DNA of 37,088 nucleotides, from NCBI GenBank assembly GCA_022822185.1, contig JAJECE010000005.1, positions 1-37,088 on the forward strand. The letters run 5' to 3'. Origin of the DNA: Rhodothermales bacterium. Lineage in GTDB: Bacteria; Bacteroidota; Rhodothermia; Rhodothermales; Bin80. Each line of letters starts with the position of its first letter. The stretch's first letter is position 1. The translations under genes and the position numbers were made by a program. Below, piece after piece: positions 9,437-31,041 of this stretch. Under the pieces are notes generated by a model that had not been told where the DNA came from, made no database searches, and was given only the letters and a program-made list of their open reading frames with translations.

Positions 9437-10051
9437 ATGATTCCCTACGACATTGACGAGGCCCTGCATGTGCTTAGGGCCTCCGACCCCCGCATGGCCA
9501 GTCTGATTACCCGCGTTGGGGCCTTTGAATTGATCTTGACCCGCGAATGGAGCCCTTTTCAGGCACTGGTGCGCTCGGTCATCTTCCAGCAAATTTCAAC
9601 GCATGCAGGCAAAGCCATCCAGGGGCGGCTGTTTGACCGGTTTGATGGCCCTCCTGAACCGGCTGCTCTGCTTGAAACGCCCCATGGCACCCTCCGATCA
9701 GTGGGGCTGTCAAAGACAAAGGAGAATACGATCCGCAGTTTAGCCGCAAGTGCAAAAGACGGCACACTGCCAGATCGAACACGCATCCAGACCATGGGAG
9801 ACGAAGAGATCATTGAGGCGCTGACGGTGCATCGGGGGATCGGGATCTGGACGGTTCAGATGCTTCTGATTTTTAATCTGGGCCGCCCGGATGTATGGCC
9901 GGTTACCGATCTGGGAATCCGCCGCGGCTACAAGATCGCCTACGAACTGGAGGAACTCCCCAAACCCTCAGACCTTCAGTCGCTGGGGAATGATTGGAAA
10001 CCATTCCGAAGTGTTGCCAGCTGGTACCTCTGGCGTGCGAATGACCTGTGA
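9437..10051 (+). CDS. DNA-3-methyladenine glycosylase II-type base-excision enzyme (HhH-GPD)
   Basis: This 204-residue protein lacks the N-terminal AlkA domain and is essentially one HhH-GPD unit, as in short AlkA/MpgII-like glycosylases. It should excise alkylated purines from DNA. It shows the QQIS substrate-pocket helix at 51-54, the helix-hairpin-helix at 129-142 (LTVHRGIGIWTVQM) and the catalytic aspartate D158 in the PVTDLGIRRG segment. There are no Fe-S cysteines at the C-terminus, which argues against an EndoIII/MutY function. The last 84 bases overlap the 3' end of the convergent ferrochelatase-like gene. No alkylation-response regulator is nearby. Confidence 0.88.
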   Translation: MIPYDIDEALHVLRASDPRMASLITRVGAFELILTREWSPFQALVRSVIFQQISTHAGKAIQGRLFDRFDGPPEPAALLETPHGTLRSVGLSKTKENTIRSLAASAKDGTLPDRTRIQTMGDEEIIEALTVHRGIGIWTVQMLLIFNLGRPDVWPVTDLGIRRGYKIAYELEELPKPSDLQSLGNDWKPFRSVASWYLWRANDL

Positions 10052-11158
10052 ATCAGGCGGCACACTACGCATACTGGACTCCACCGCCTCGCCGATCATA
10101 TCGGACAGAGTTTCCAGAAACAGCCCATAACTGTTCAATGCCTTGGCAACTTCAAAGTGATGAACTCCTGACTGATGGGCAAAATTCCGGCAGGCAATAT
10201 CCATGCTGTACGTTGTCTGCAGATTTTCGGTAGTTCCGCAAAGCGGTAGCAGCATAACGCAGCGGTTGCCTGCATAGGCCATTTCAATGACGGTCTCCTT
10301 CAGTTCCCGGAGGTAGTCCCCGATGGGGTCGTAGTATCCATAAAACGCGGTATCCCACGGATGTTGTTCTTTCCGCATCTGCATGACATCTTTGCTCACT
10401 TGCATGACCTCTTCCTTGAACTTAACTTTGTTCTGACCGGGGATCCCTGGAGCACAGAAAATTACCGCTGTACTGGACCGGTACGGTTTTGGAAACCGCT
10501 GGAGTGTCTGGTCGATGCGTTCACTGAGTGCTTTCAGGACTCCCGGAACGCGGCCAAAAGGTGAGATGGCATAGGTTGACCATTTGGGGATCTCATTATT
10601 GGCCGTCAGATTTTGCCATTTTCCGATTGACTTTTGCATCCCTGCATTGGATTCCTGCAAATAGGCAGGGACCAGAATCACATGCTCGATCCCATCCTTT
10701 TTCATCTGCTTTGCCGTATCCGGCAGGGACGGGTATGCATACTGGGTTGCAGCATACACGCGAAAGTCAACATTAATTTTATCTCTCCAGCGTCGACTCA
10801 GAGTATCTTCCAGCCCTTGTGCCTGCTCATGGATTAACTTCTCTGCCGGACAGTTGCCTCCGATGGCTTTCAATTCATGCGCAACTTTTTCCCGCATAGA
10901 CACCGCCGCAAGCCACGAAAAGATCAGTTGCAGGTAGTTTAATCTCTGGGAATAGTTCCCCTGAAACTGGTCGTCGTAAACGCGGCGCAGGAATGAATGA
11001 ACATTCTGAGCCTGACTTGGGCCGCCCCAGTGAAGCAGGACAATCCCAACTCTGTCGAGGTCATGGATTCGCCTCGGATAGAAGTCTCTGTGCGGTATTC
11101 GCAAGGCAGCCTGCTGGACAGGTATACCTCCCGCAATGGTATGTTTAGGAGGAATCAT
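9968..11158 (-). CDS. Ferrochelatase-like protein with substituted active-site residues
   Basis: From ATG 11158 the protein has 396 residues. The frame extends to a TTG at 11176. The fold signature of ferrochelatase (HemH/CpfC) is clear: RVGIVLLHWGGP matches the family opening (LLNLGGP), VILVPAYLQES matches the VVPLYPQ-type strand, and a PL-x(8)-QTTYSMDIA region follows. However, the metal-binding His of the SAHGLP motif is replaced: here it is C-A-P-G-I-P with P237. In the SDHIETLYELD motif the His is N312 and the essential Glu is Q314. The protein also has an N-terminal extension of about 35 residues and a C-terminal extension overlapping the glycosylase gene. The rluA-type gene is immediately upstream (50 bases from its stop to this ATG), so the two are probably co-transcribed. 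It may be a chelatase with altered chemistry, a tetrapyrrole-binding protein or a pseudoenzyme. Confidence 0.78.
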   Translation of the reverse strand: MIPPKHTIAGGIPVQQAALRIPHRDFYPRRIHDLDRVGIVLLHWGGPSQAQNVHSFLRRVYDDQFQGNYSQRLNYLQLIFSWLAAVSMREKVAHELKAIGGNCPAEKLIHEQAQGLEDTLSRRWRDKINVDFRVYAATQYAYPSLPDTAKQMKKDGIEHVILVPAYLQESNAGMQKSIGKWQNLTANNEIPKWSTYAISPFGRVPGVLKALSERIDQTLQRFPKPYRSSTAVIFCAPGIPGQNKVKFKEEVMQVSKDVMQMRKEQHPWDTAFYGYYDPIGDYLRELKETVIEMAYAGNRCVMLLPLCGTTENLQTTYSMDIACRNFAHQSGVHHFEVAKALNSYGLFLETLSDMIGEAVESSMRSVPPDSQVIRTPEVPAGNTSEWFPIIPQRLKV

Positions 11159-11208
11159 AGCGCTTTTACAGTGCAAACGTTTTCATGGTTCCCGTTTTTA
11201 TGTGAATT

Positions 11209-11874
11209 TTAATGAATTTTTGAATTATTTACGAATTTCCCCCAGAAGCCGGGAAATGCGGCTTTGACCTCCATGGGAGTCTTCCGTACGGGGTGCAAAA
11301 AGTGAAGATTCTGACAATGTAAGGCAATTTGGCCACTTTCTGCAAAGTTCTGGCATGCACCATAGCGGGTGTCTCCCAATATGGGGAAGCCCCGCTCACT
11401 GAACTGACATCGAATCTGGTGAGCACGCCCGGTAATCAGTTCAATGGACACCCGTGTATGTGTTCCATTGGTCTCTACGGCATGCCATCGCAGGCTTGCA
11501 TACTTGCCCTGTTCACTGGCTGGAACCACATAGGCCCGGTCGGCCTCCTTATACAGATAATCTTCCATGACTCCACTGCCGGTGAGTACCCCTTCTACTA
11601 GAGCGCTGTAGGTCTTGTTTACATTTCGTTCCCGGAATGTCTGCGACAGGCGCCGTGCTGCCTTGGAGGTCCTTGCAAGCACCATTGCTCCCGATGTGGG
11701 ACGATCCAGTCGATGAACCAGTCCGATATACACATTCCCCGGTTTCCTGTATTTCTCTTTGATGTACTTTTTTGCCAGAGTGACCACATCCGGGGATCCG
11801 CTGCTATCTGCCTGCGACAGCAGTCCCGGCGGTTTATTCAGCGTCAAAAGATGGTTGTCTTCAAAAAGCCACAT
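11209..11874 (-). CDS. RluA-family RNA pseudouridine synthase
   Basis: The 221-residue protein matches the short RluA class without an N-terminal S4 domain. Such enzymes isomerise specific uridines in rRNA or tRNA. The catalytic motif HRLDRPTSG spans residues 54-62 with nucleophile D57. A LNKPPGLLSQ motif at 12-21 and an ITGRAHQIRCQF motif in the C-terminal half complete the family pattern. ATG at 11874 leads directly into the first conserved strand (MWLFEDNHLLTLNKPPG), so the start is secure. It is upstream of the ferrochelatase-like gene on the same strand. The exact RNA target cannot be read from the sequence. Confidence 0.92.
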   Translation of the reverse strand: MWLFEDNHLLTLNKPPGLLSQADSSGSPDVVTLAKKYIKEKYRKPGNVYIGLVHRLDRPTSGAMVLARTSKAARRLSQTFRERNVNKTYSALVEGVLTGSGVMEDYLYKEADRAYVVPASEQGKYASLRWHAVETNGTHTRVSIELITGRAHQIRCQFSERGFPILGDTRYGACQNFAESGQIALHCQNLHFLHPVRKTPMEVKAAFPGFWGKFVNNSKIH

Positions 11875-12582: not shown

Positions 12583-14346
12583 ATGAATGTGTCCAGTTTT
12601 TTCCTCACCCCGATATTTCTCTATGTATACGCTGGCGCAGTTTCCGTGTTTTTTGTTTACTGGACATGGCAACTGATCAAGAGCGCAAAAGATCTCCGAA
12701 AACGATTGCTTGAGGCAACGGAAAAACTTAGCAAAATTGACGGCGAACAGGGGTTTGTGGAGCATTTTGAAGAATTCCATGCCTATGCGGGCAAAAAGTT
12801 TGGCCGGGCCTGGGAAGAGTTCGTAGAGATGCTCATCCTGCCTCCGCCTGGCTCAGGGGATCCGGTTCGGAACACAAGCGGGGTTTCAAACTACCTGAAC
12901 GAAACGACCATCATTTTTCCTGAGGTGAATTTTCGATTTTTCCGCTCCGTTCCAAATTTGCTGATGGGGCTGGGGATTCTCGGTACGTTTCTCGGCTTGG
13001 CCGTTGGAGTTGGATCAGCGGATACGGGCCTATCCTCTGGTATCCCCAGTGAAATTACTGCATCTCTAGAGCAACTTCTGTCCGGCGCTTCGTTAGCCTT
13101 TTACTCCTCTATCGTTGGAATTTTGCTCTCCCTTATTTTCGTCGGGATTGAGCGTAGACAGTCCAGAAAACTTCATCTTGACCTGTACAATTGGGTTGAT
13201 GAACTGGAAAAACACCTGCGGCTTATCACAGCCCCGGAGATTGCGCTCAAACAATTGAATGAGGCAGAGGATGCAACAACCCAGCTTAGACAATTCAACA
13301 CCGACCTCGTATTCTCCATTGAGCAGGCACTTGAGGAGAAAGTTGCAGGCCGGCTTACCCCGCATCTTGAGCAATTAGTAACATCCATCGAAGGGCTGCG
13401 GTCTGATCGAACCAGTGAAGCCGGACACATGATTGAACGCTCTCTTGCACAGTTTACGGCCGCAATGCAGCAGCAAACCGGTGCTCAGTTTGAGGAAATG
13501 GCTTCGGTTGTCGGCAATCTGAACAGTACGCTCAAAGATGCCTCAAACGGTTTTGCACAAACCCAACATGATCTCTATACCACAATGAACTCTCTTGTCG
13601 AGAGCATGGAAGCATCTTTGGATGGGAGCACAAGGTCAATGACCGAAACTCTGCAGCAATCCTTAAATGGCGTGTCCGATATTGTAGCAAATGCATCCAG
13701 ACAGATGACGGATCAAATGGTCGAGTCCACCAATGCCTCTGCACTGGAGTTGCGCACTACGATCAGCCGCCTTACCGAGGATTTAGCAAAAACCAGTATT
13801 GATGCTGTTCATCAGATCGCCGGGTCAGTAAACAGTTTACAAGAGGCCGCCGAAAGCCTTGGGCGGTCCACACAGCAAAGCGAAAAAATGCTGTTAAGCA
13901 TGACCGGGTTCGTGAATCAGTTGAACTCAATTCGCCATATCATATCATCGTCCCACAAAGAAATGTCAACTATATCTGTACAGATGGAGCAGGTTGCACA
14001 GAACATTCAGACTTCCAGTGACCGATCTGCGAATTCGCTGGAATTGACACAGGACGCGGTAGGCAGTATGGGTGCATTGATCCAGAAACTTAAAGAGCAC
14101 CAGCAATCTACTGCAACTGCCTGGACCCAGTATCAGGAACGATTCGAGGATATTGATGTCTCGTTAAAGAGTGTATTTGTACAAATGGATGAGGGGCTGT
14201 CACGATATTGTGTGCAGGTTCAAGAGTTTGCTACCACACTTGACCGAACATTCTCCGAGGCTATCGGGAATCTGTCTGGTGCCATATCAGAATTTAATGA
14301 TTCTATTGATGACCTCGTTCCACGTCTTCCAAATAATACCCCATGA
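12583..14346 (+). CDS. zorA: Zorya defence protein ZorA (MotA/ExbB-like channel with long coiled-coil tail)
   Basis: The 587-residue membrane protein has three predicted helices: 10-32, 121-143 (PNLLMGLGILGTFLGLAVGV) and 166-189 (SGASLAFYSSIVGILLSLIF). The latter two are the MotA/TolQ/ExbB proton-channel core, with T135 and the S175/S176 pair as likely pore polar residues. Residues from about 200 to 570 are a long, Gln/Ser/Glu-rich coiled coil, the cytoplasmic tail that in characterised Zorya transmits phage sensing from the envelope. ZorA works as a pentamer around a ZorB dimer. Its TGA overlaps the zorB ATG (ATGA), indicating translational coupling. From memory, the tail is shorter than in the E. 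coli type I protein (about 730 residues in total). Confidence 0.93.
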   Translation: MNVSSFFLTPIFLYVYAGAVSVFFVYWTWQLIKSAKDLRKRLLEATEKLSKIDGEQGFVEHFEEFHAYAGKKFGRAWEEFVEMLILPPPGSGDPVRNTSGVSNYLNETTIIFPEVNFRFFRSVPNLLMGLGILGTFLGLAVGVGSADTGLSSGIPSEITASLEQLLSGASLAFYSSIVGILLSLIFVGIERRQSRKLHLDLYNWVDELEKHLRLITAPEIALKQLNEAEDATTQLRQFNTDLVFSIEQALEEKVAGRLTPHLEQLVTSIEGLRSDRTSEAGHMIERSLAQFTAAMQQQTGAQFEEMASVVGNLNSTLKDASNGFAQTQHDLYTTMNSLVESMEASLDGSTRSMTETLQQSLNGVSDIVANASRQMTDQMVESTNASALELRTTISRLTEDLAKTSIDAVHQIAGSVNSLQEAAESLGRSTQQSEKMLLSMTGFVNQLNSIRHIISSSHKEMSTISVQMEQVAQNIQTSSDRSANSLELTQDAVGSMGALIQKLKEHQQSTATAWTQYQERFEDIDVSLKSVFVQMDEGLSRYCVQVQEFATTLDRTFSEAIGNLSGAISEFNDSIDDLVPRLPNNTP

Positions 14347-15221
14347 TGAGAAAATTGCAATCCTCATCAAACCCGGGGCAGGGGGATCAGAACTATCTTG
14401 CCAGTATTAGCGATGTGATGGCGGCACTCATATTCGTGTTTATCATCATGTTAGCCCTGTTTGCTTATCAATTATCAAACGTTACAGAAGAACAGGCCAA
14501 TGTTACCGAGAGATTGACTGCGAGTGACGAAACACGTGATCATATTCTACGAGAACTGGAAAACCGACTGGAAGAGGCTGGCATGAGTGTTGAGGTGCTC
14601 CAGGACCAGGGCGTGCTCCGCCTGTCGGATAATGCAATCAATTTCCCGTCCGGCAGCGAAAACCCCGTCGTGGAACATCAACGCAATGTCGGACGATTGG
14701 CAAAGGCGCTGGCGGAAGTTGTCCCCTGCTATGTTTCGTCTGACAGGGAGGCCATGATTGCCGGATCCGATATAGATCCTGCTGTACTGACCACTGAGAA
14801 TACACCGCTATACTGCCAACCAACTGAAATAACCTCGACATATACCTGTGAGGAACAGGACTATCCATGGCTTCTGGAAACCCTGCTTATTGAGGGGCAC
14901 ACCGACAGTATTCCCGTGGCTGGTGACCGGCGTTTTCGAGACAATCTTGAATTATCCTCCATGCGTGCTGCTACGGTGTACCGCATGATCACGGCATGTG
15001 AACCCCGCATTGAACGCATTCGCAACACGGAAAACGTTCCCGTGCTGAGCACGAGCGGCTATGGGTACACGCGACCGGCAACACTTGACCCTGAACTGTC
15101 CGACTACAATAGACGTATTGATCTGCGACTTCTCCTTGAACCTCCCGATGATGCCATGTCATCTGCCGAATCGAATCTCCAGGAACAACTCCTGCAGCGT
15201 CTTGGCGAGGAAACTCAATGA
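14343..15221 (+). CDS. zorB: Zorya defence protein ZorB (MotB/OmpA-like peptidoglycan-binding stator)
   Basis: The 292-residue protein has one N-terminal transmembrane helix (about 24-43) carrying the ion-carrying aspartate D24 in SISDVMAAL, equivalent to the MotB plug Asp. A short linker coiled coil (47-80) precedes a C-terminal OmpA-like peptidoglycan-binding domain with EGHTD (184-188), NLELSSMRA (201-209) and YNRRIDL (255-261). Between these motifs is an insertion with cysteines C129, C158 and C169, plus C219 later, all expected in the periplasm and able to form disulfides. It overlaps zorA and zorC by ATGA junctions. ATG 14343 and ATG 14346 are both possible starts. Confidence 0.93.
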   Translation: MMRKLQSSSNPGQGDQNYLASISDVMAALIFVFIIMLALFAYQLSNVTEEQANVTERLTASDETRDHILRELENRLEEAGMSVEVLQDQGVLRLSDNAINFPSGSENPVVEHQRNVGRLAKALAEVVPCYVSSDREAMIAGSDIDPAVLTTENTPLYCQPTEITSTYTCEEQDYPWLLETLLIEGHTDSIPVAGDRRFRDNLELSSMRAATVYRMITACEPRIERIRNTENVPVLSTSGYGYTRPATLDPELSDYNRRIDLRLLLEPPDDAMSSAESNLQEQLLQRLGEETQ

Positions 15222-16882
15222 GCAAAAAATCTCTAAAGGAAACGCTGTCAAAATGGAGTGGATTGCCGAAGCCTCCACATCGACTAGAGCCAAGACAGAC
15301 GCAAAAAGCAGCCGCTGAAGTTGCGAGATTTTGGGGAACTGAATTATCAAGGAAACCCGCAGACTATGATCTGAAAGATCTTCATCAGCGAATATCACGC
15401 AGTTGGCACCGATACCGTATGCTTACTGAGTACGACAAAACCGATACAGATAAGTTAACCTGGGTTTCATTTTTTGAGCAGGAGGCCACGAAATCAGGGG
15501 ATTCTCCTTCTCGTGACCTTCGAAGGCTGCCGTGGATTCTATTTTATTCTCCCCTTGAGCAAACCTCAACACGGCAGCAGTCAGGATCCAATGGCTGGCT
15601 GGGTGGAGATCCGCTGTTTGTCAGACATTATGGGCGCTGGCTGTCTGAGCAGAGGAACACACGCTCCGTACGAGCTCTCTTGAGTGAGTTCCTGCTTACC
15701 TATCCCATCGAACTATCTACGTTTGAGGAACTTCGGAGTCTGCTCCAATCCTCCATTACCGGAACGGCGGCATCAAATCTCAAGTCGCTGCAAAAATGGC
15801 AACAAAGATGTCACCAATTCCGTCTTTTAGAGACAGACGGCAGCCGTTTATTCATTGAAAAACTTGTATTGCTTCGGGATGATGTGCAGGAAATCTTGAA
15901 TCATGAGGGTTTTGAAGGCAGACTTGCACGAGGAGGGTTTCTAAAATCCGGCATTCTCGAATATCTTCCGAGGGCCAGCGAACTCCTGAAGGGAGATGGT
16001 TTACCGCCTGCCCGGCTCGCACGACTGCTGCAAGTCCTTGAAGTTGACGACGGCCTGCGTTTTGATGATCGCACCGTTCGGGCCGCAATTGCGGAATCAT
16101 TCCTCGCCCCGTTCTCCGAAGGGTATTTGCCTCATGGAGCCCGAGATCAATTGGAACCTTTTTTCATGCGGCACTTCGGTGACCCGCGTCTTCCATCAGG
16201 AAAATCCAGTTGGTCCGGGGTACCGGAAGAATTTCGTCTGGTCATCAAGAGGTGGCTGACGGAGCAGACACTTGAAGAATTTTTCAGGCTTATCAAAGAG
16301 ACGGCTCTGGACCGTCACTGGTCGTACCGGCAGACATTCTGGAAAGCCTATTTTGATCATCACTTGATTCTTGATGCCTGGTTTGTTCTGGGAACCAGAG
16401 CGCGGCGGCTTATGAAATCCCTGAAAGACAAAGAGCATTCGTACGGAATGCTTCGGGGTGGTGCGGCAGGTGATCAGTCTGTACTTCTGTTACGCATGCA
16501 TAGCGCAACAATCGTGGAGTGGAGCCACAGTGGAGCATGCCGCATATGGCTTGACGGCAATTCCAGCGCTCCAGAACTGTACAGAGATATGAACAGCCCG
16601 TACACAGGCCAAGAACTGCGGGCAATTGCAGATTTGGAACAACCCCATTACAGCAGTGAAACCGGGCGGTGGCAGGATGCGATTGCAGACTGGCTGCAGG
16701 ACAACACAGGAGTGGAGGTTCCTCGTTCAGAATACTTTGAGGGATCCGAATCTTTTAACAATAACCCATCCCGTACACAGCCAGGCATCGGGAATTCCCC
16801 TGCCCCGGTCCAACCTGAAAAAGCGCGGAAGCCGTTCTCCATCTCCAGCTTCAGACATAGATGGGGATCTCAAAATCACTGA
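15218..16882 (+). CDS. zorC: Zorya type I protein ZorC (EH_Signature domain)
   Basis: The 554-residue soluble, mostly helical protein follows zorB with an ATGA overlap. The part from about 315 to 450 carries the pattern of the EH_Signature family: an FGDPR segment at 320-324, then RWLTEQTLEEFF (345-356), an E...W.YR..FW..Y run (361-378), and a later IVEWSHSGACRIW stretch (432-444). ZorC is found only in type I Zorya, where it binds DNA and, with ZorD, is required for defence. The N-terminal 300 residues show no motif I recognise. The C-terminal tail after about 505 is low-complexity Pro/Ser/Lys. Another frame remains open past the stop to 16958 and could be the original C-terminus after a frameshift. 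Confidence 0.88.
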   Translation: MSKKSLKETLSKWSGLPKPPHRLEPRQTQKAAAEVARFWGTELSRKPADYDLKDLHQRISRSWHRYRMLTEYDKTDTDKLTWVSFFEQEATKSGDSPSRDLRRLPWILFYSPLEQTSTRQQSGSNGWLGGDPLFVRHYGRWLSEQRNTRSVRALLSEFLLTYPIELSTFEELRSLLQSSITGTAASNLKSLQKWQQRCHQFRLLETDGSRLFIEKLVLLRDDVQEILNHEGFEGRLARGGFLKSGILEYLPRASELLKGDGLPPARLARLLQVLEVDDGLRFDDRTVRAAIAESFLAPFSEGYLPHGARDQLEPFFMRHFGDPRLPSGKSSWSGVPEEFRLVIKRWLTEQTLEEFFRLIKETALDRHWSYRQTFWKAYFDHHLILDAWFVLGTRARRLMKSLKDKEHSYGMLRGGAAGDQSVLLLRMHSATIVEWSHSGACRIWLDGNSSAPELYRDMNSPYTGQELRAIADLEQPHYSSETGRWQDAIADWLQDNTGVEVPRSEYFEGSESFNNNPSRTQPGIGNSPAPVQPEKARKPFSISSFRHRWGSQNH

Positions 16883-16951
16883 TTCGCTGTGGCAAAATTC
16901 TCGAGAAACGAACTCTCGTATTGCAGCCGATAACCTATCTGATTTCCTGGA

Positions 16952-17209
16952 TCACTGATGAATCTGCGGGAGCGTATAGTTTACGACCTTCATCAGTAAA
17001 CCTACAATAGAAGCAGTCGCAGATCCGAGAAGTGTAACGATAATTGAGGGATGATAATCTAAACGATTCATCCCGTCAAGAACTACAATGACCACCACAA
17101 AGATGAGCCAAATCAGTACCAGACACCCAACTGACGGAACAATCCATCTCTGCATTTCCAATCTTCGAACCCGTTCCTCCCGTCCCAAATCATTACTTTC
17201 ACGCAGCAC
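16952..17209 (-). CDS. Two-helix small membrane protein, probable PanT-type toxin
   Basis: This 85-residue protein starts with a basic, amphipathic region (EERVRRLEMQRW) and has two hydrophobic helices (about 23-44 and 56-77). The second is Gly/Ser/Ala-rich (GSATASIVGLLM). It lies directly downstream of a Panacea-domain gene. Small two-helix membrane proteins are among the toxins neutralised by Panacea antitoxins, so I infer a membrane-acting toxin; no direct evidence is visible. The annotated start is GTG 17209 and is weak. A better-placed ATG at 17240 overlaps the panA stop (TGATG) but is out of frame by one base across an A7 tract (17226-17220, minus strand). The gene converges on zorC with a 69-bp gap. 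Confidence 0.62.
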   Translation of the reverse strand: MLRESNDLGREERVRRLEMQRWIVPSVGCLVLIWLIFVVVIVVLDGMNRLDYHPSIIVTLLGSATASIVGLLMKVVNYTLPQIHQ

Positions 17210-17239
17210 CCTCGATTTGTTTTTTTATGCGGCGGCGCA

Positions 17240-17770
17240 TCACTTGCAACTGACTTCTTCAGAAACTGACGACTGTTCATTGATATTTTCTGCTGCTTTA
17301 ATTTTTTTCGTATAGTAATCTCGAATTATCTCTTCTGGAATACGAACAGTACGACTAGCTAACTGCTTTGAAGAATGGCTTCTGACAACCCAATCCCACG
17401 GGGTTCCCTTTTGATGGGTTAGAGCGGACAGGTCAAGCGCGGAAAATTGGTTATAATGCTCTAAAATCATATTAAGAAACTCGGTCATTGAATCATCAAG
17501 CGGTGGTTCATTAGACAGTTTGATCCCCGAAGTGACGGTGGCTGTAATTGGATTCCTGCCATATTGGTTGATCTGGAAGTACAGTTCCGGGATTACCGGT
17601 CCGTAAGGCCATGCACAAATCGGATCATAGATTAATCGATTCCCTGTATACCCCAAATACCATCCATGCGCTATGTACACAAGCTTAAGAAGCTTCATGG
17701 GAGTCAGGTATACCCCCCCTTTCCAACTCTCACGTAGAAAGTAGTTAGCGATTGTGATTGAACTGTACAT
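17240..17770 (-). CDS. Panacea-domain (DUF4065/SocA-like) antitoxin
   Basis: The 176-residue protein matches the Panacea/DUF4065 domain: ANYFL near the start, MKLLKLVYIAHGWYLGYTG at 25-43, then the AWPYGPVIPELY motif and the YGRNPI continuation. These are typical of the phage GepA/SocA family, which serve as antitoxins for very diverse small toxins. No separate DNA-binding domain is evident. The C-terminal tail (about 150-176) is charged. The gene is the first of a minus-strand pair with the two-helix membrane protein, and the pair sits inside the Zorya operon. Sampled 60-base lines of this gene have 28-47% G+C against 58% in a sampled line of zorD, suggesting separate acquisition. Confidence 0.8.
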   Translation of the reverse strand: MYSSITIANYFLRESWKGGVYLTPMKLLKLVYIAHGWYLGYTGNRLIYDPICAWPYGPVIPELYFQINQYGRNPITATVTSGIKLSNEPPLDDSMTEFLNMILEHYNQFSALDLSALTHQKGTPWDWVVRSHSSKQLASRTVRIPEEIIRDYYTKKIKAAENINEQSSVSEEVSCK

Positions 17771-18240
17771 GCTTTGATCTTATCCGGGAGACTGCTATCG
17801 GCTCATCCAATATTCGACTGTACTAAGTTCATGGATCAATGTTGCATGGTAAGCTCCCTTACCTCTGCCTGAGATTGTCTTCATTCATTTGGAACATTAA
17901 ACTCTCGTCCCGTCAATCTGTGGAATGACGGACTCAAAGATGTCCATGACGTTCCTTAAATTGAGTGACCCAGACTCCGAAGGAGCGTCTGATAAAATCT
18001 CATTCGCCACCGTTGCACACGGCTTATTGTCTCTTGGACCAAATGGTTATCTGATTCCAAATCACTTCCAATACCATATATTGTCGCCGCACACATCTAT
18101 GCAACACTTCGCCGCACGGTAAAATAATGAATCCCCCGAAACCTGAAAAGCCGATGATTCCTCCCTGCCATTCATGCCACCAGTTAAAGAATTCGCTTCA
18201 ATCTCTCTTAAACAGGATCTTTTTACTGCAAATCTGATCA
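17771..18240. promoter_or_regulatory. 470-bp divergent region between panA-like antitoxin and zorD
   Basis: No convincing gene is present. A 65-codon plus-strand open frame at 17925-18122 has no family character. The two flanking genes diverge from here, so both the panA/panT promoter and a separate zorD promoter should be inside. The only symmetrical element I found is a weak 6-bp inverted repeat, CCGTCA (17910-17915) with TGACGG (17926-17931). A stop codon at 18235-18237 in the zorD frame fixes the zorD start downstream of it. Confidence 0.45.
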
Positions 18241-21200
18241 ATGCCTGAACTCATCACGCCTGAATTTCGAACGACCCCAGATGGGCTATGCGTCTGGATG
18301 GAAGAAAATGATCAGCGAATCCCGGTCAGCGAATGGACATCTCACACGGGAACAGCACATTATGCCGGTGCATTTTTGCGGTTGCGTGACGACGGGGAGG
18401 CCGTAGAGCAGGAGGATGGAAAGGTGCTGCGACTGTCCTGGAGCAGCGTAGCAAACCTGCCTGTGGAGGACTTAAAGTATATGGGACTTCCCAATGCATG
18501 CCCGTATACGCTTGAAATAACCTCGGACGGAGCACTGCATGACCGTTACTTTGAACTGCATTACGGCTTCATCCAGAAAGGCCGGCGCATCCTGGGGCAT
18601 AAGCGTGAAGGCGCGTGGCTGCGGGCCGGCGGAGATGACTTCATTCTCATTGATCCACTGTATGACATCGTTGAAGCGATTGATATATCCAATTCTGCGG
18701 ATAATCAGGATATTGAGAGCCGGATGCTCCGGTGGGGACAGATCTCCCAAAATCTGCCGGACGGCTCCGAAATCCCCGACCAACTGCGCTCTATTCGCAT
18801 CACAGTTGCCACGGGATTTGAACTGCATCCGTTTCTGAATGAATCCGATGAGCCGGATTTTGACCCCGTAATTGGCCGGTGGCAGACTAGTGTTGATGAG
18901 AGCGGAGAAGAAGAGAGGGAATTTCGTCATGCCTTACCTACTGCGAGACAGACCGAATTCTCTAAAAAATTTCGCGGACTCTCAAAGGTTAAGCACAGAT
19001 ATTCGGCCGGGGGAGCCTACTATATAGTGCTTACCCCACAGGTCAAAAGCGCCCTTGTTGCCGTGCACCGTGCACAGCGGGCATCCCTCGAAGAGCGTCA
19101 TGAATTCCTTAAAAATCCTTCCGGATTTCTGCGGGGTGCGCTTGATGATGCAGGAGAAACCGGGGTTGATGTTGACCGGGTGTTCTGTGACGACGAACTG
19201 AGTGCGCGTGTTGAAGGAGTCGGGATCTGGTCCAGACGGATACTGCCCTGGATTCAGCGGGCTTCCGATCCCTGGCTCCCCCCGGAACGTCTCGGACTCC
19301 GAATCGGAACGAAGGTCGTGCAGATTCCGGTCGAAGAACTGCCGATCCTGTTGGACCAGGTCAACGCAGCAATCACAGGCGGGGCCGCAACCGTTGCAAC
19401 AAGCGATGGCATTGAAATTCCTGCAAGTGTATCTACCGCGTCCGCAATTGAAGAACTTATTCGGCAAATCCCTCCCATACAGTCACCGAAGGATCGTGCA
19501 CGGTCAGATTCGAAAAAACAGGAAGTCAAGCCGGATCAGGTCCTCCTGATTACGGAAAATCTGGAATCACTTCAATTCAGGCGGGAGCCGCGGAAATGTA
19601 CCCCCGGTGTCTCTGAATTGACACCGGCGATCCGGAGTACGCTGCTGCCACATCAGCAAGAAGCGGTGACATGGCTTCTCAATCACTGGGAGGCCGGTAG
19701 CTGGGGGGCACTGCTTGCCGACGATATGGGACTCGGTAAAACACTTGAATCCCTGGCTTTTTTGTCCTGCCTGCAGACGCATCTCCTGAATCTGGAAACC
19801 CATGACCAGCCGATCCTTGTCGTTGCTCCGACAGGTTTACTGCAGAACTGGCTGGATGAACATGACAAACACCTGTCCGGAAATGGACTCGGACGAGCCC
19901 TTGAAGCATACGGGACGGACCTGAAAAAACTCAAGCTTCCCAACAGTTCAGCCGGCAACGAACTCGGCGCAGACATGCCCCTGCCGAAATTGGACATCAA
20001 TAAACTGAAACGGGCTGCCTGGGTGCTGACCACGTACGAAACTCTGCGTGACTATCAGCATAGCTTTGGCCGTGTCCGCTGGAGTGCCGGTGTTTTCGAC
20101 GAAGCACAAAAGATCAAGAATCCCGGAACACAGATCACCGTTGCTGCGCTTGCAATGAATATTGACTTCGCACTGCTGATGACCGGCACGCCCGTAGAGA
20201 ACCGTCCGGCAGACATCTGGTCCCTGCTAGACCGTATAGAACCGGGAGAGTTTGGAACCCTGAAAGAATTCAGCAAAAAGTACGAAAGCAACACCCCTGA
20301 TCACAACGCGGCACTTACGAAACTGAATCATGCGCTAACAGCAGGAAATGGAACGCCACAGTTAATGTTACGGCGACTCAAGGAAGATCACCTGTCCGGA
20401 CTGCCGCAAAAAAGTATACATCCCCTCATCGTGGATATGCCAAAACCCCAGGCGGACGAATATGATCGGGTCTTGAATCGCCCTCCCACAGACGAACCAA
20501 TACTTCAAAAACTCGCCCGGCTGCGTTCAATCTCATTACATCCAGAGGTGCCAGGCGATCTGACGGATGATCAGTACATCCAGAGATCTGCCCGGCTTAA
20601 AGAAACATTCTCAATCCTGCAGAACATAGCCAGATGCCAGGAAAAAGCCCTCATTTTCGTCGAATCACGCCAAATGCAAGGCTTTCTTATTGGCGCAATC
20701 CGGCGATGCTTTGAACTCCCTGATGATGTGCTCGTGATCAACGGGGCCGTCCCTGGAAAAACACGTAAAAAACGCGTGGACTTATTCCAGAACCGGCGAG
20801 GCTTTGATGTGATGCTGCTGTCACCGCGTGCAGGGGGGGTCGGACTGACGCTGACCGCTGCAAACCATGTCATTCATTTGTCACGATGGTGGAATCCCGC
20901 TGTCGAAGATCAGTGTACCGACCGCGTCTTCCGGATCGGACAGCAGCGGCCCGTTCACGTATACTTTCCCATGGCAAAACATCCGCGTTATGGCAAATAC
21001 AGTTTTGACTTGAAATTGAATGATCTGATCACCCGAAAACGGGAAATGAATCAAAGTATCCTTTCACCAACCACGGCGAGTAAAGGCGATCTGGAAGAAC
21101 TCTACCGCAGTATGACCCGGACAGAAACAGATCATCCTGCGTCTGCTGAGCATCTTAATGTAGATCTTCTGGAGCCTGAAGAATTTGAAAACTGGGTTCT

Positions 21201-21534
21201 TAAGCAACTCTCACTGGCAGGCTATGAGACCCGTAGAACGCCTCGGAGCGGTGATTGCGGTGCAGACGGACTGGCATATTCGCGCGGCAATACCGAGGAA
21301 CACACGCTGCTGATCCAGTGCAAACGGATGCAGCCCGACGCAAAATGCAACTCCAAAGCTGTACAGGAAGTGCTCCGTGCTGCCGCAGAATATGAAATAC
21401 AGGGCGAACCAAAATTTATGGTCGTAACCACAGCTGATGATTTTACGACAAGTGCAAAAACCCTGGCACTGCGAGAAGGCGTCAAACTGGTATCCCGTAC
21501 AAATCTGTCTCGACTACGAACCTGGCAGCCATGA
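18241..21534 (+). CDS. zorD: Zorya type I effector ZorD (SNF2-family helicase fused to Mrr-like nuclease)
   Basis: The 1097-residue protein has an N-terminal region of about 450 residues typical of ZorD, then a SNF2 ATPase: Walker A DDMGLGKT at 494-501 (K500), DEAQ box at 620-623, TGTPVENR after it, and helicase motif VI RIGQQR from residue 898. The C-terminus (about 975-1097) is a restriction-endonuclease-like Mrr domain with D1009 and Q1026-C-K1028, followed by a conserved VTTADDF strand. In characterised Zorya I, ZorD degrades phage DNA after ZorAB activation. The start ATG 18241 is fixed by an in-frame stop 6 bases upstream. Unlike zorABC it is not translationally coupled, because the toxin-antitoxin pair separates it. 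All key catalytic residues appear intact. Confidence 0.93.
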   Translation: MPELITPEFRTTPDGLCVWMEENDQRIPVSEWTSHTGTAHYAGAFLRLRDDGEAVEQEDGKVLRLSWSSVANLPVEDLKYMGLPNACPYTLEITSDGALHDRYFELHYGFIQKGRRILGHKREGAWLRAGGDDFILIDPLYDIVEAIDISNSADNQDIESRMLRWGQISQNLPDGSEIPDQLRSIRITVATGFELHPFLNESDEPDFDPVIGRWQTSVDESGEEEREFRHALPTARQTEFSKKFRGLSKVKHRYSAGGAYYIVLTPQVKSALVAVHRAQRASLEERHEFLKNPSGFLRGALDDAGETGVDVDRVFCDDELSARVEGVGIWSRRILPWIQRASDPWLPPERLGLRIGTKVVQIPVEELPILLDQVNAAITGGAATVATSDGIEIPASVSTASAIEELIRQIPPIQSPKDRARSDSKKQEVKPDQVLLITENLESLQFRREPRKCTPGVSELTPAIRSTLLPHQQEAVTWLLNHWEAGSWGALLADDMGLGKTLESLAFLSCLQTHLLNLETHDQPILVVAPTGLLQNWLDEHDKHLSGNGLGRALEAYGTDLKKLKLPNSSAGNELGADMPLPKLDINKLKRAAWVLTTYETLRDYQHSFGRVRWSAGVFDEAQKIKNPGTQITVAALAMNIDFALLMTGTPVENRPADIWSLLDRIEPGEFGTLKEFSKKYESNTPDHNAALTKLNHALTAGNGTPQLMLRRLKEDHLSGLPQKSIHPLIVDMPKPQADEYDRVLNRPPTDEPILQKLARLRSISLHPEVPGDLTDDQYIQRSARLKETFSILQNIARCQEKALIFVESRQMQGFLIGAIRRCFELPDDVLVINGAVPGKTRKKRVDLFQNRRGFDVMLLSPRAGGVGLTLTAANHVIHLSRWWNPAVEDQCTDRVFRIGQQRPVHVYFPMAKHPRYGKYSFDLKLNDLITRKREMNQSILSPTTASKGDLEELYRSMTRTETDHPASAEHLNVDLLEPEEFENWVLKQLSLAGYETRRTPRSGDCGADGLAYSRGNTEEHTLLIQCKRMQPDAKCNSKAVQEVLRAAAEYEIQGEPKFMVVTTADDFTTSAKTLALREGVKLVSRTNLSRLRTWQP

Positions 21535-21610: not shown

Positions 21611-23959
21611 CTAATTGCGGCCCGCAAAGCCAAGCCCCAAAAATATCCTCGGCGCATCCATGCTGCGGGTGAAGTTGATCCGCACGGGGGCCCGTGCAAT
21701 ACTCAGCGAAACCTCATGAATCCAGCGTCCATTCATGTATACATGCGCTCCCCCGAACCGGATGCTGACATTCTGGCCAACCAGCGGGCGAAGCCGGAGA
21801 GACTCAAACAGAACACTCCGAAAATCATGCTCCCAGTACCCCCCGATCATTTGACGGCCGATAAGACGATGATTCCGAAGAGTCCGCAATGTCCCTAATT
21901 CGCCAGCAGATGCAATACTCCCCTCAGCTACATGCCATCGATCCCTCGGTGCCCCCCGGGTGACGATGCCGCCCAGAATGCGCAGCGAAAGTCCGAGCGG
22001 AGCCGGGCGGCGACGCATGAAAGTGGGAATATGATAGTCTGCCAACAGCGTCGTCCGAAGATCATCATATCCACCGGTCGAATGGGCAAACTCTGTCCTG
22101 ATTTCGAAACTCTTTCGGGGATAAACATGATAGGGGTTCCAGGCTTTTCCCGTCCCAAGCCTGAACTCAAGGGTTTGGCGCTGCCCCTTATGGATCGCCG
22201 GATTGTCCGGGAATTTCTTTTTCCACGGCCATGGACGCTCTATATGCGTATCAATCGATTCAATAAACGCATACTCCCCCGAAAGCATCATCCGTATCCC
22301 CTTCTTTTCATAACGTCTGCTTACACGGAGACTCCTGGACCAGTACCAGTCAAAATAATCCTCCGCAAATAGACTTGAAGACAATGTGTTCAATGCCTCG
22401 GTGTGAATCAACATCCCGTTCTGTGGACGCGTGTTCTGCCTGTAAACCACCGAGGTCTGTGAGAACCTGGTTCCTCTCTGATTCCATGCAAGATTGAGAC
22501 GCGTTCGTCCGTATCCGATTGACTGACCAATCCGGGCGGCAATCTTGCGGTCATCTCCAACCGTAACGACCCTGCCCGCCCCTACACGTGTTCCGTCAAC
22601 ACGGTTGAATGCAAACCAGGGACTGAATCCTCCCACAACGGGGAATGAAAACTGAGGGCGATCCCATATCTGGAAGTTGTACAGTTCAAATTCAGATGCA
22701 AGTACCGAAGTTGGTGGAAATGCCTCCCGAAGCGTCAAGGGCTTCTTCCATCGAAGTTCCCCCAGGGCCTCCAGTTCACGCGCCGTCAACGCAACCATAT
22801 CCAGCCCCATCAAAAACAAGTCATCCCGCAGAACCGAAGTGGTGTCAATCTGCAATGGCTCCTCACGGGTAAATGGCCCGGCAGGAACCGGTTGGTTCGC
22901 CTCGTAGTCCATCAATCTAGCAGTCTGCTCTACCACGGCCGGACTGACCCGCTCACCGTCCGGCTCTACATGAATCCAGCCCTGCAGTTGAAGGTCTATC
23001 GGAAGCCAGAATGAATCCACCTGCGCAAAATTCTGCCGATAATGGATACTCCAGTCCTTTGTATCCGGCGAAAAGACTACATGCGGGGCAGGCCTCAAAT
23101 CTACCTCTATGAGTGCGTAAAGGCTGTCCAATACCGAGATTCGGCCAATGAATGTGGCTTCCTGATTACTTTTGGGAGCAACATAGATGTCGTACAGCTG
23201 CTGCCCGTTCCATACGCGGCGGCCCGCAAAGGTGAACGTATAATGCTCCAGTGCATCCGGGTGGGTCGGCCCGAAGAACGGCAGCCCGTTGATGTGCACA
23301 TGATCAGAGGAAAAATCCTGCGGGGTCAATTTCAAACCCAATTCTTCGTGAAAATCCGAGGTTTGACGCCTCGACCGGATGACATCTCTGATCCCACTCC
23401 CTCTGGAATAATACCGGTCAAAGATCGCTTCGCTGACCAGAACAATCCGGTCCCGATTCTGAAGCGTGATCCGGGCATAGACTCTTGCATTGTGAGCATT
23501 CAGATGGCGTCTGCGTGCGGCCTTCCGGCGAATGACTTCCTGCATAATTGCTGTCGCCAGATAGTCTCCCGTAATTAACAGTTCCGGCAACTCTATTGCT
23601 GCAGGCTCAAGGCTGATGTGGAGCGTTCGGGCATCATCCGGCATCAGTTTGACACGTATCGGATGATAACCAATATGGCGAAAAACAAGGGTCGCCGGGA
23701 GATGGGAAAGCGTGAGTTCAAAATCACCCTCCCGATTGGTAATCGTGCCCCGATTACTCCCTTCCATGATAATGTGCGCCGAAGCAAGCGGAAACCGGGT
23801 AACGGAATCACGCACCGAACCGGTAATGAGAACCTGCCCCGCTGCCTGCTGCGGATACATCTGGATTGCTGCAAAACCCAGTAAACCCAATGCCCAGGTG
23901 CGGAGGACATAACGCCTTCTGAAAAATACAGGTCCAAGCACCGTGCAATGCCGATTCAT
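21611..23959 (-). CDS. DUF5686-family outer-membrane protein with carboxypeptidase-like regulatory domain (copy 1)
   Basis: The 782-residue protein has an N-terminal membrane or signal segment (LRTWALGLLGFAAIQMYPQQAAGQ). A CarboxypepD_reg-like beta-sandwich follows (about 44-120: TGSVRDSVTRFPLASAHI, then TNREGDFELTL). The rest is the DUF5686 body, with a C-terminal beta-barrel of alternating aromatic and polar strands. This architecture is specific to Bacteroidota-type outer membranes and its molecular function is not established. It is 14 bases downstream of a paralogue of the same length and order of motifs (for example GPTHPDALEHYTFTFAG here, GVTHPDALDRYIFTLEG there), a clear tandem duplication. 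The last gene of the minus-strand run, it converges on zorD across a 76-bp gap without a strong terminator. Confidence 0.85.
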   Translation of the reverse strand: MNRHCTVLGPVFFRRRYVLRTWALGLLGFAAIQMYPQQAAGQVLITGSVRDSVTRFPLASAHIIMEGSNRGTITNREGDFELTLSHLPATLVFRHIGYHPIRVKLMPDDARTLHISLEPAAIELPELLITGDYLATAIMQEVIRRKAARRRHLNAHNARVYARITLQNRDRIVLVSEAIFDRYYSRGSGIRDVIRSRRQTSDFHEELGLKLTPQDFSSDHVHINGLPFFGPTHPDALEHYTFTFAGRRVWNGQQLYDIYVAPKSNQEATFIGRISVLDSLYALIEVDLRPAPHVVFSPDTKDWSIHYRQNFAQVDSFWLPIDLQLQGWIHVEPDGERVSPAVVEQTARLMDYEANQPVPAGPFTREEPLQIDTTSVLRDDLFLMGLDMVALTARELEALGELRWKKPLTLREAFPPTSVLASEFELYNFQIWDRPQFSFPVVGGFSPWFAFNRVDGTRVGAGRVVTVGDDRKIAARIGQSIGYGRTRLNLAWNQRGTRFSQTSVVYRQNTRPQNGMLIHTEALNTLSSSLFAEDYFDWYWSRSLRVSRRYEKKGIRMMLSGEYAFIESIDTHIERPWPWKKKFPDNPAIHKGQRQTLEFRLGTGKAWNPYHVYPRKSFEIRTEFAHSTGGYDDLRTTLLADYHIPTFMRRRPAPLGLSLRILGGIVTRGAPRDRWHVAEGSIASAGELGTLRTLRNHRLIGRQMIGGYWEHDFRSVLFESLRLRPLVGQNVSIRFGGAHVYMNGRWIHEVSLSIARAPVRINFTRSMDAPRIFLGLGFAGRN

Positions 23960-23973
23960 TCATCTCCAGTGAA

Positions 23974-26370
23974 TCAGAAGATACGGGCCACGCCAATCGC
24001 AGGATAGAACTGGTTTTGACCGATCCGATACGCAAGATCAAAACGCATAAACCCAAATAGTCCGCTAAGTGAAACTCCTAACTCGTTATGATCAATCCAT
24101 TCCCCGTGACGGGATCCTGTCCCGCGAACAAATGCATGCCCACCAAAAATTAATACGTTATAGCCTTCATTGGCCATCCCGCGCAGACCAAGAATTTCAA
24201 ACAACAGCGTGCGAAAATTATGCTCCCAGTGCCCAAAGATAACAGCATTCCCCTGATAGGGTAAGCCCTGGAGTGCATATAATGAGCCGCCCCAGTGAAA
24301 AATTCTGGTTCCCCCCTCAACAATAAAGGAACGCTGGAGCGGCAATGTCCGGCCTCCGTCTGAAGCAAAGCCTGCCGTAATCCCAAAATCCAGCGTTGCC
24401 GGTAAAAACCGCCGCTGAAGAAAGGTCGTGATCCGCCCCCCTGCCCGTACATAGTACCTGCGGAACGTAATGTCCGACCAGGGCATGGAGAGTTCAATAC
24501 TGGACTCAAAATACCTTGACGGACCAATGCCAATGATCACCAGTTCATCCTGACCGGCACGAAAGGTCGCCGTAAACGTCCGAAAATCTCCCTCCATAAT
24601 TGCTCCATTCGGGCGCTGGAGTGTACTCTTGCCCATAAAATCATAACTCACATTGCCCATCAGACCGGAATGCTTCTCATGGAGATAGGTGCCGGTAAGG
24701 GTCGCCGATCCCCACCTCCTGATCCTGTATCCTCCCGTTAAGGAGATCCCCTCCCGCCGGTAATAATCAAAATAATCCTCCCTCCCAAAAAGCATCAGAA
24801 TACTGTTCGGCAGACGTCGATAAATATTTGACTGATAGGTAGATGCATTCTCTGCACGGTACGCTGCCTCCATAAACCAGCCCTTATCTATACGAAAAGT
24901 TCCCTTGTAGGAATACTTGCCCCTGCCATCCTGCCCCGTATTGACACCTGCTTTTGCCTGCACTTCAAAGATGTCTCCGAAGTCCTGCTTTGTCCCAAGC
25001 CCTAGATGCAGCGCATCCACACGGTTGTACCAGAGATCGGGCTGAAGCCCAAGACGGGATATAAATGAATTCGACCCCCGGAACACCGAAACAGACCGCT
25101 CAACCGATGCGCGGCGCTCTTCGGCTTCCTCAAGTCGATTCATAGTGCGCCCCAAAACTCCCCCCGGCCGGAATGCCTCCCGGAGGGAATGCGTGCTGTC
25201 TATCGATGCATAGGCGATGGTTTCCTTCGGCGTGAGCGGAACAATCGACCCCTCACGCTGAAATGACTCGCCAGACGACACGGCCGATGAATCCACCTGC
25301 AGCCAGGTTTCCTCTTCAAACAAACTGTCCGCAAGTTCTACATTCAACTGATAATCGGTAAAACGGGATACCATGTCAATCCCAACGGTTGGAAAATTCA
25401 GGAGCGCTCCAAGTGCAATCTCCACCATTGTACTTGAGCGCAGGTCAATTGGCAGCCAGATCTGGCCGCCATAATTGGAAAACTGCTGCAGATAGGTGGT
25501 TTCATACCTCTGGATTGGTACAGGAAACAGGAACGCCGGTCCAGGGCGCAGCCTGGCTTCTATGAGGGCAAACTCTCCATCAAGTACCGACACGCTCCCC
25601 ACAAATGCGCTGCTGAGATTGTTTTCTGGCGCAACAGCTATATCATAGACCAGCGCATCATCAACCTTGCGTGTCCCCTCCAGCGTAAATATATACCGGT
25701 CCAGTGCATCCGGGTGGGTCACACCAATGAGCGTATGACCGCTGATTTCAATGTCATCATCATACAGGTTCACCATGGTCCGCGCAGCAGGAAGTGCCTC
25801 CACATCCCCTAAGGGTACATTCCCGGTACTTCGGGACCCGGTGACCTCCTCCCGAAGCCCGCGATCCCGGTCCCACCACGCGGTTGCCGCCGACTCAATA
25901 ATCGCAACAATCCCCGAATCATTGGAAAAGGTGTACCGCGCATAGGCCCTGGCCTCAAACGTGTGAAGCTGTTCCCGCCAGATTTGCTTCCGCTCAATGA
26001 CCTGCCGCATAATCCAGACTGCCGGATCATCTTCGGTCACCACCAGCTGTTCCATTTCCAATATGACCGGCTCTAGACGAAATTCCAGCGGTGTCAGTGT
26101 GTGTGCCGTCAGCGTGTCCGTGCGGAACCCAATATACCGCACCACAATATCCACCGGCAGATCATCCACCGCAATTTCGTACATCCCCTCGTTATTGGTA
26201 ATCGTCCCCCGGTACGTACCCGTAATCTGGACGGTCGCTGCCGGCAGCGGCGCACCGGTATCTGCGTCCATAACCCGGCCGCGAAGAATCTGTGCATCAC
26301 TTATCGGCATGTACATCGTGCATGCAAGCAAAATCGAACCGAATGCCTTCCGGGCCCGTGATCTAGCCAT
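23974..26370 (-). CDS. DUF5686-family outer-membrane protein with carboxypeptidase-like regulatory domain (copy 2)
   Basis: The 798-residue protein has a short signal peptide (FGSILLACTMYMPISDAQ), the carboxypeptidase regulatory-like domain (about 30-115, RGRVMDADTGAPLPAATVQI) and the DUF5686 region. It ends in a barrel whose last residue is Phe, the usual Bam recognition signal; copy 1 lacks this terminal Phe. It shares the FGHWEHNFRTLLFE motif with copy 1 (GGYWEHDFRSVLFE), confirming paralogy. Its ATG overlaps the end of the patatin gene by 8 bases, so the three genes likely form one transcript. The role is unknown; the regulatory-domain family is often linked to surface assembly or TonB-dependent uptake. 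Confidence 0.86.
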   Translation of the reverse strand: MARSRARKAFGSILLACTMYMPISDAQILRGRVMDADTGAPLPAATVQITGTYRGTITNNEGMYEIAVDDLPVDIVVRYIGFRTDTLTAHTLTPLEFRLEPVILEMEQLVVTEDDPAVWIMRQVIERKQIWREQLHTFEARAYARYTFSNDSGIVAIIESAATAWWDRDRGLREEVTGSRSTGNVPLGDVEALPAARTMVNLYDDDIEISGHTLIGVTHPDALDRYIFTLEGTRKVDDALVYDIAVAPENNLSSAFVGSVSVLDGEFALIEARLRPGPAFLFPVPIQRYETTYLQQFSNYGGQIWLPIDLRSSTMVEIALGALLNFPTVGIDMVSRFTDYQLNVELADSLFEEETWLQVDSSAVSSGESFQREGSIVPLTPKETIAYASIDSTHSLREAFRPGGVLGRTMNRLEEAEERRASVERSVSVFRGSNSFISRLGLQPDLWYNRVDALHLGLGTKQDFGDIFEVQAKAGVNTGQDGRGKYSYKGTFRIDKGWFMEAAYRAENASTYQSNIYRRLPNSILMLFGREDYFDYYRREGISLTGGYRIRRWGSATLTGTYLHEKHSGLMGNVSYDFMGKSTLQRPNGAIMEGDFRTFTATFRAGQDELVIIGIGPSRYFESSIELSMPWSDITFRRYYVRAGGRITTFLQRRFLPATLDFGITAGFASDGGRTLPLQRSFIVEGGTRIFHWGGSLYALQGLPYQGNAVIFGHWEHNFRTLLFEILGLRGMANEGYNVLIFGGHAFVRGTGSRHGEWIDHNELGVSLSGLFGFMRFDLAYRIGQNQFYPAIGVARIF

Positions 26371-29948: not shown

Positions 29949-31041
29949 ATGTGCTCCGCGCCTGCCTGGCCAGTTCCTGCACGATATTCTCCGCTTCAAA
30001 TACGGTCCTCAGAACAGACAGAACCCCCGAGGTGGAGACCACAACACAGCGCTGCAGGCCTTCGGTCACTGCATGATCAAATGCAACCCCCAGAATCTCC
30101 ATATCTATATCTATAACCCCCGTTCCTATCTGGGCGCACCTGCCTGCCATGGAAAAATTCAATGCTGCGGACGGGTCTCCTTTCTGGATTCCAGCGCTCC
30201 ACTGCGCAGGCAACTCCCAAGCTCCCGTTGCGCCATGCGAATAGTGCAGATCCAGCATCCCATACAATGTCGTATAGGGTGGGGTCACCGTCCCGTTATA
30301 GGTGAATGTATCCGAGATGGACATACTTGTGAACGGTTTATTTTCATTCACGGCCGTGGTGAACAGTCGTTCCCGGTGATTCGGCGGGCGATCACTCCAT
30401 GCAAAGTAACTCTCCGTATCCAGGGGCTGGCCACGCTCATCATATACTCTGAAGAATGCAAAATCCAGTGCGTGCCTGGGGTAAACCCCACCCTCATTGC
30501 CAAAATTTGCCACATCCACTGAAGGAATCAATACCAGTCTTACATCCTCGTAGATATACCAGATATATTCCCGGAAACTGCTGCTGTCCTGCGCGGCAAC
30601 GACCTCTGTACGTGTTCCCGGCAGGGTGTCGCTCACAGGATCCTCTGCCCTTTCAAGTTCCCGGATCCCGACAAGTCGTTCTGCCTTAAGGCCTGTCAGC
30701 TGATGTTCCATAGACAACTCGTCGGCTACAAATGCCGAATCCGCCGGGCGGATCCACGATTCCAGTGACCGCAGACATGCCGCACTGGTCACGGCCAATC
30801 CATCCGCACTTACCAGAGCGCCAGCACATTTTGGCAACTGCAAGGTCCCCAGACGCATATGTTCAATCCAGTCCCCATCTACCATTGAGCCCCCCATATG
30901 CTCCGTGGGTACATGTAAATATCGTTGATGGCGTACAATCACCGTGTCTGCCTCACCAGAAGGGTTCACCTGTCTTGCCTCGGCAGGCAGGCTCAGCAGA
31001 AAAACGCCGATAACCCCGTAGACGATGGAACTATTTTTCAT
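29935..31041 (-). CDS. Truncated S46-like protein lacking catalytic His and Ser (pseudoprotease)
   Basis: The intact 368-residue frame starts with a signal peptide (YGVIGVFLLSLPAEA). It aligns with the neighbouring S46 enzyme across the double-barrel protease fold: DVRLVLIPSVDVANFG, HALDFAFFRVYDERGQP and YNGTVTPPYTTLYG match EDIRLVMAPEKKLGYFG, TLDMAFFRAYDREGNP and YNGTRAPAFTTFYG. The TNHHC motif is T-S-A-A-C (His lost) and GGNSGSP is represented by A-Q-I-G-T-G (Ser becomes Ile), although the Asp strand persists. About 300 residues of the helical domain are absent. There is no internal stop or frameshift, so it has been maintained. It is the upstream partner of the active enzyme with 14-base overlap. 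Possible roles are a chaperone, regulator or peptide-binding subunit. Confidence 0.72.
   Translation of the reverse strand: MKNSSIVYGVIGVFLLSLPAEARQVNPSGEADTVIVRHQRYLHVPTEHMGGSMVDGDWIEHMRLGTLQLPKCAGALVSADGLAVTSAACLRSLESWIRPADSAFVADELSMEHQLTGLKAERLVGIRELERAEDPVSDTLPGTRTEVVAAQDSSSFREYIWYIYEDVRLVLIPSVDVANFGNEGGVYPRHALDFAFFRVYDERGQPLDTESYFAWSDRPPNHRERLFTTAVNENKPFTSMSISDTFTYNGTVTPPYTTLYGMLDLHYSHGATGAWELPAQWSAGIQKGDPSAALNFSMAGRCAQIGTGVIDIDMEILGVAFDHAVTEGLQRCVVVSTSGVLSVLRTVFEAENIVQELARQARSTYEDE

Follow-up and report, generated by a model that had tools for sequence, protein, structure and literature searches.

The DNA analysed here (the window; 37,088 nucleotides of a Rhodothermales bacterium contig) encodes, at 9968..11176 on the reverse strand, a ferrochelatase homologue with replaced catalytic residues and an altered pocket that purifying selection maintains. 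These observations bear out a sequence-only reading of the same DNA, which had proposed a retained, non-classical homologue with tetrapyrrole binding, metal sensing or a different chelation as candidate roles. We give about an even chance to the interpretation that it is a neofunctionalised pseudo-ferrochelatase, most likely a putative non-catalytic tetrapyrrole-binding protein whose ligand and role we infer.

The reading frame is intact, as had been claimed, and is open to the stop at 9968 either from a TTG at 11176, giving 402 residues, or from an ATG at 11158, the more likely start, giving 396. Residues are numbered here in the 402-residue form, such that P237, N312 and Q314 of the earlier reading, counted from the ATG, correspond to Pro243, Asn318 and Gln320; the ferrochelatase domain spans residues 42–368. 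Alignment to human ferrochelatase places Pro243 (codon 10448..10450, reverse strand; motif FCAPGIPG) at the catalytic histidine H263, whilst Glu317-Asn318-Leu319-Gln320 (10217..10228, reverse strand) replaces D340-H341-x-E343, with Glu317 encoded at 10228–10226, Asn318 at 10225–10223 and Gln320 at 10219–10217. The CAPGIP and TENLQTTY motifs picked out earlier are thus as described. The same Pro/Glu/Asn/Gln state occurs in G003 (an independent genome of the same genus; protein 94% identical) and in G006 (66%); FCAPGIPG is identical in both, and the second motif, LLPLCGTTENLQTTYSMDIACR, is identical at 22/22 residues in G006. Because all three genomes carry these residues, sequencing or assembly error was ruled out as their source. 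The C-terminal tail (9968..10051, reverse strand) lies antisense to the last codons of a convergent alkA-like gene; it is modelled with low confidence and is missing from the G006 and G012 orthologues.

The protein matches PF00762 over residues 43–363 with 147.8 bits (curated cut-off 27). An AlphaFold2 model built from 46 homologues (pLDDT 84; poor only at residues 1–28 and 376–402) was overlaid on ferrochelatase, a check suggested by the earlier reading, and the fold is retained: the best structural match is the human enzyme (Z 36, rmsd 2.6, 319 residues, 22% identity). Further pocket replacements relative to the human enzyme are N75 to His49, M76 to Trp50, Y123 to Leu102, S130 to Cys109, R164 to Gln145 and F337 to Gly314; the equivalent of Y191 is retained as Tyr172. 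The window protein departs at 83 of the 148 columns that hardly vary among 17 canonical long HemHs of the order, the further replacements just listed among them, so the earlier claim of an otherwise preserved fold signature holds for the fold itself but is too generous beyond it. The C-terminal Cys motif of those canonical proteins (RCHQC...EAxCW; RCxxC...EAxCW) is missing, there being no cysteine in the tail of the window protein.

Every H263 variant studied is inactive, and E343 and H341 support proton abstraction (PMC9133952). Since the equivalents of H263 and E343 are lost together with residues on the propionate side, iron–porphyrin chelation by the window protein is, judged from its sequence, very unlikely. 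That it could nonetheless be an ordinary, still active ferrochelatase is suggested by a score well above the Pfam cut-off, and by homologues with H341 changed to Gln (HEQE) near HemQ and URO-D, which are presumably active; against the inactivity of the H263 variants, a score under the HemH equivalog cut-off and the presence of a canonical HemH in the genome, we regard this as highly improbable. With the human-type HemH/PpfC (PF00762, TIGR00109) the window protein shares fold and family, and its gene occupies the order's old HemH locus, but it lacks the catalytic His and Glu and most pocket residues, and it scores below the NCBIfam TIGR00109 HemH equivalog cut-off (116.6 vs 124.6 bits). A chelatase with changed chemistry, acting on another metal or another tetrapyrrole, would fit a pocket under selection, and the class II chelatases SirB and CbiK have the same fold; however, with the basic catalytic His replaced by Pro and the acid by Gln, with the studied H263 variants all inactive, and with no tetrapyrrole gene found among the neighbours of the window gene, it too is improbable. 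Loss of activity need not abolish porphyrin binding: a human E343K variant, though inactive, is purified together with protoporphyrin (PMC9133952).

The window's own genome (G000; 3.71 Mb, 98.8% complete) does encode a second, canonical short HemH, which the sequence-only reading had advised looking for, with the motifs SAHSLP and SDHVEVLYDID. Its gene is located between those for URO-D and a protoporphyrinogen-oxidase family protein, adjoined by a PF06778 (HemQ/ChdC) gene and ALAD, all on one strand of contig C86. This order, hemB-hemQ-hemE-hemH-hemY, is the established layout of the coproporphyrin-dependent pathway. The two ferrochelatases of G000 are about 24% identical to each other, and HemQ, URO-D and the short HemH are present in 16/16 genomes of the family, the window's included. 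Given this separate canonical HemH, heme synthesis does not depend on the window gene.

The window gene has nevertheless been maintained as a protein-coding gene. Across the ferrochelatase domain, G000 and G003 differ with dN 0.023 and dS 0.208 (dN/dS about 0.11). Between G000 and G006, identity is 86% over the 100 codons of eight segments that line the ferrochelatase active site (picked from known motifs, not blind) and 59% over the remainder of the domain (Fisher p 1.5e-6), and 2/326 shifts in a circular-shift test of this bias reach the observed value. The distance is dS-saturated, and of the pocket codons with an unchanged amino acid 56% carry synonymous differences, which indicates that the constraint acts on the protein. 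Canonical groups (0.86 vs 0.67 and 0.56) show a comparable pocket bias, as do the altered lineages f4, f5, f13, f2 and f12; the linked copies of f14, taken as a set, show none (0.59 vs 0.57). The G012 orthologue (35% identical) has different residues, Thr/Asp/Thr/His, and the exact pocket is therefore not common to the whole family.

The gene lies 30–32 bp downstream of an rluA-type pseudouridine synthase gene on the same strand (11209..11874, reverse), and is convergent with an HhH-GPD (AlkA-like) DNA glycosylase gene (9437..10051, forward), which serves as a locus marker in the family and was not counted in function. The sequence-only reading took the rluA neighbour as a hint of co-expression with RNA modification; this did not stand. 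rluA adjoins hemH homologues in eight other families (f2, f5, f6, f9, f11, f12, f14, f15), canonical ones (f6, f15) as well as altered ones, and is an ancestral hemH neighbour in the order; in G006 the pseudo-ferrochelatase gene no longer adjoins the intact rluA, yet remains conserved. A functional link was thus rejected as inherited synteny, uninformative on RNA modification. A short gene, c20, likewise accompanies both canonical (f7, f9) and altered hemH copies. Among the neighbours other than rluA none supports a heme role, nor was any clue to function obtained from the genes flanking copies that have moved or are unlinked, which encode arylsulfotransferases in G006 and DUF819, galactokinase, amylase and unnamed proteins in f4.

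The order rluA, pseudo-ferrochelatase, alkA is shared by G000, G003 and G012, whereas in G001 and G015 rluA and alkA abut and the gene is absent. In G006 the gene is relocated, with an rluA fragment beside it (L034:9182-9328) and an N-terminal remnant of the pseudo-ferrochelatase left beside alkA (L100:6420-6509); these pieces are evidently the traces of a segmental move. Taken together, synteny, the abutting rluA and alkA, and G006 place the gene at the old hemH locus, from which it was repeatedly lost, and show that it survived a relocation. It is present in four of the family's genomes and missing in 12/16, and is thus dispensable. This patchy retention, the two members in which the flanking genes abut, and the absence of pocket bias in the linked f14 copies would be expected of a functionless, decaying relic of the old hemH; the intact frames, the low dN/dS, the conservation of the pocket above the rest of the domain over a dS-saturated distance and the survival of the gene through relocation in G006 make such a relic improbable. 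A scan of named genomes with an orthologue alignment returned only the records of G003 (Rhodothermales bacterium jk18xAbins.42) and G012 (Bacteroidota bacterium RHO3_bin_5), and the clade carrying the protein looks narrow by this pattern search, which reaches close relatives only.

Other features of the window were observed alongside this locus. PADLOC models identify a Zorya type I anti-phage system at 12583-21534 (forward strand), comprising ZorA (12583-14346), ZorB (14343-15221), ZorC (15218-16882) and ZorD (18241-21534); in G003 (L033) the zorA and zorB regions each consist of two ORFs, so the copy there may be broken. At 21611-26370 (reverse) two adjacent DUF5686 / CarboxypepD_reg-like proteins lie beside a patatin gene, and related genes are also found near rluA in G012 (L035). 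Two overlapping ORFs at 27729-31041 (reverse) both match peptidase S46; that at 29935-31041 covers only part of the family and may represent a second copy that is truncated or split.

The motif was read in 72 homologues of the order, and the heme pathway was typed by URO-D and HemQ, with ALAD for selected genomes. Canonical long HemH is present in 24/24 checked genomes with URO-D and without HemQ (the old pathway), in 3/15 genomes with HemQ and a long copy, and in 0/14 genomes without ALAD and HemE-grade URO-D; two of the latter, G030 and G040, have only distant URO-D family matches of 68-80 bits. The contrast between the old pathway and the replaced or lost pathway (24/24 vs 3/29 canonical) gives a Fisher p of 4e-12, counted on genomes and uncorrected for kinship. 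All 14 genomes of the last group keep an altered copy and have COX1, and would therefore appear to be respiring heme auxotrophs. Recent single changes between close relatives are conspicuous: G024, lacking ALAD and URO-D, has H263 changed to Gln, whilst in its congener G045 both genes are present and the motif is intact; G035, with HemQ, has E343 changed to Gly, whilst G023 and G044 of the same family have no HemQ and an intact motif. In the tree most altered copies join (support 94/97), several on long branches, and G035 (f9), G024 (f10) and the f12 pair fall among canonical copies, outside the altered group. The joined copies could represent one old paralogue or a long-branch artefact, and we do not claim a single origin.

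Across the order as a whole, 17 genomes lack ALAD and HemE-grade URO-D but have COX1 (G018, G032, G042, G019, G024, G025, G057, G074-G076, G080-G082, G016, G030, G040, G049) and look, by gene content, like respiring heme auxotrophs; in 14/17 a non-canonical PF00762 protein is retained. A ferrochelatase of a third type (SAHGTP, HEQSETLAEL), with H263 and E343 kept and Gln at the H341 position, occurs in HemQ-carrying genomes (L042, L045, L047, L060 and L062, in G051, G043, G035, G072 and G073). The altered-residue copies at L034, L035, L038, L043 and L075 pass the TIGR00109 equivalog cut-off, and annotation pipelines would consequently call them functional HemH.

In the interpretation we favour, acquisition of the heme cluster with its short HemH would have made the old hemH at the rluA locus redundant. 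The copy left at this locus, kept in four genomes of the family, no longer has the catalytic His and Glu, the C-terminal Cys motif or other residues of the pocket; with these, the window protein would have lost the ability to insert iron into porphyrin, whilst the ferrochelatase cleft may have been retained for a ligand, making it a putative binding protein. The ligand would most likely be heme or another tetrapyrrole, bound with no metal exchange, for delivery, buffering or sensing. Loss of the Y123, S130 and R164 equivalents and the entry of Trp50 into the pocket of the modelled protein argue against the usual porphyrin pose, and a different ligand is consequently the main rival. Here the altered pocket would bind a non-tetrapyrrole, or the protein would act by contacting other proteins, pairing for instance with the active short HemH or with some other heme enzyme. 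This rival would account for a pocket that is conserved although most porphyrin-contacting residues are replaced; against it, altered copies have repeatedly been kept where the heme economy changed, including in the apparent auxotrophs with COX1, which points to heme handling. We consider this rival possible, if on the unlikely side.

Known systems offer partial parallels for a pseudo-ferrochelatase. The nematode FeCL (the C. elegans ‘pseudoferrochelatase’) is likewise a retained homologue without the catalytic His, and some species additionally have a horizontally acquired active ferrochelatase (PMC5633385, PMC9133952). The window gene resembles it in being intact and selected without the catalytic His. 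However, FeCL is eukaryotic, its hosts are heme auxotrophs, and its replacement residues arose separately; G000 makes its own heme (ALAD, URO-D, HemQ and HemH are present), whereas the 14 other genomes of the order with altered copies appear to come from hosts without heme synthesis. A survey of ferrochelatases reported two copies in Salinibacter ruber, both assumed functional and the second without the Cys motif, and excluded sequences without the His (PMC8529089). In the likely matching genome, G028, whose identity with S. ruber we infer, Asn stands in for E343 in the copy linked to rluA; unlike the window protein, the second copy of S. ruber keeps the catalytic His, and the pocket of its group is not preferentially conserved. 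FetB/IhtB of Porphyromonas gingivalis combines a chelatase fold with a link to heme handling (PMC6460266) and matches the window model with a Z of 16.9, but belongs to a different, CbiK-like family of the outer membrane, so that the likeness is at the level of the fold only. No paper on bacterial pseudo-ferrochelatases was found in a literature search, most subscription journals being outside its reach.

Dead ferrochelatases are known from nematodes, and the window protein, its altered pocket conserved, gives them a counterpart in bacteria. Altered copies, some of them from apparent heme auxotrophs, pass the HemH cut-off and would be taken to show that heme is synthesised, which calls for care in annotation. 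In several lineages of the order the trait accompanies the replacement and the loss of the heme pathway, such that its role is testable both comparatively and biochemically. More speculatively, and at strength well short of our main interpretation, ferrochelatase in aerobic Rhodothermales may have a second, non-catalytic role, such as holding heme or handing it over for respiratory enzymes; this putative role would become visible because a protein with a conserved non-catalytic pocket is kept where heme synthesis has been replaced or lost, and the window protein would then be one of several specialised survivors, in parallel to the nematode FeCL.
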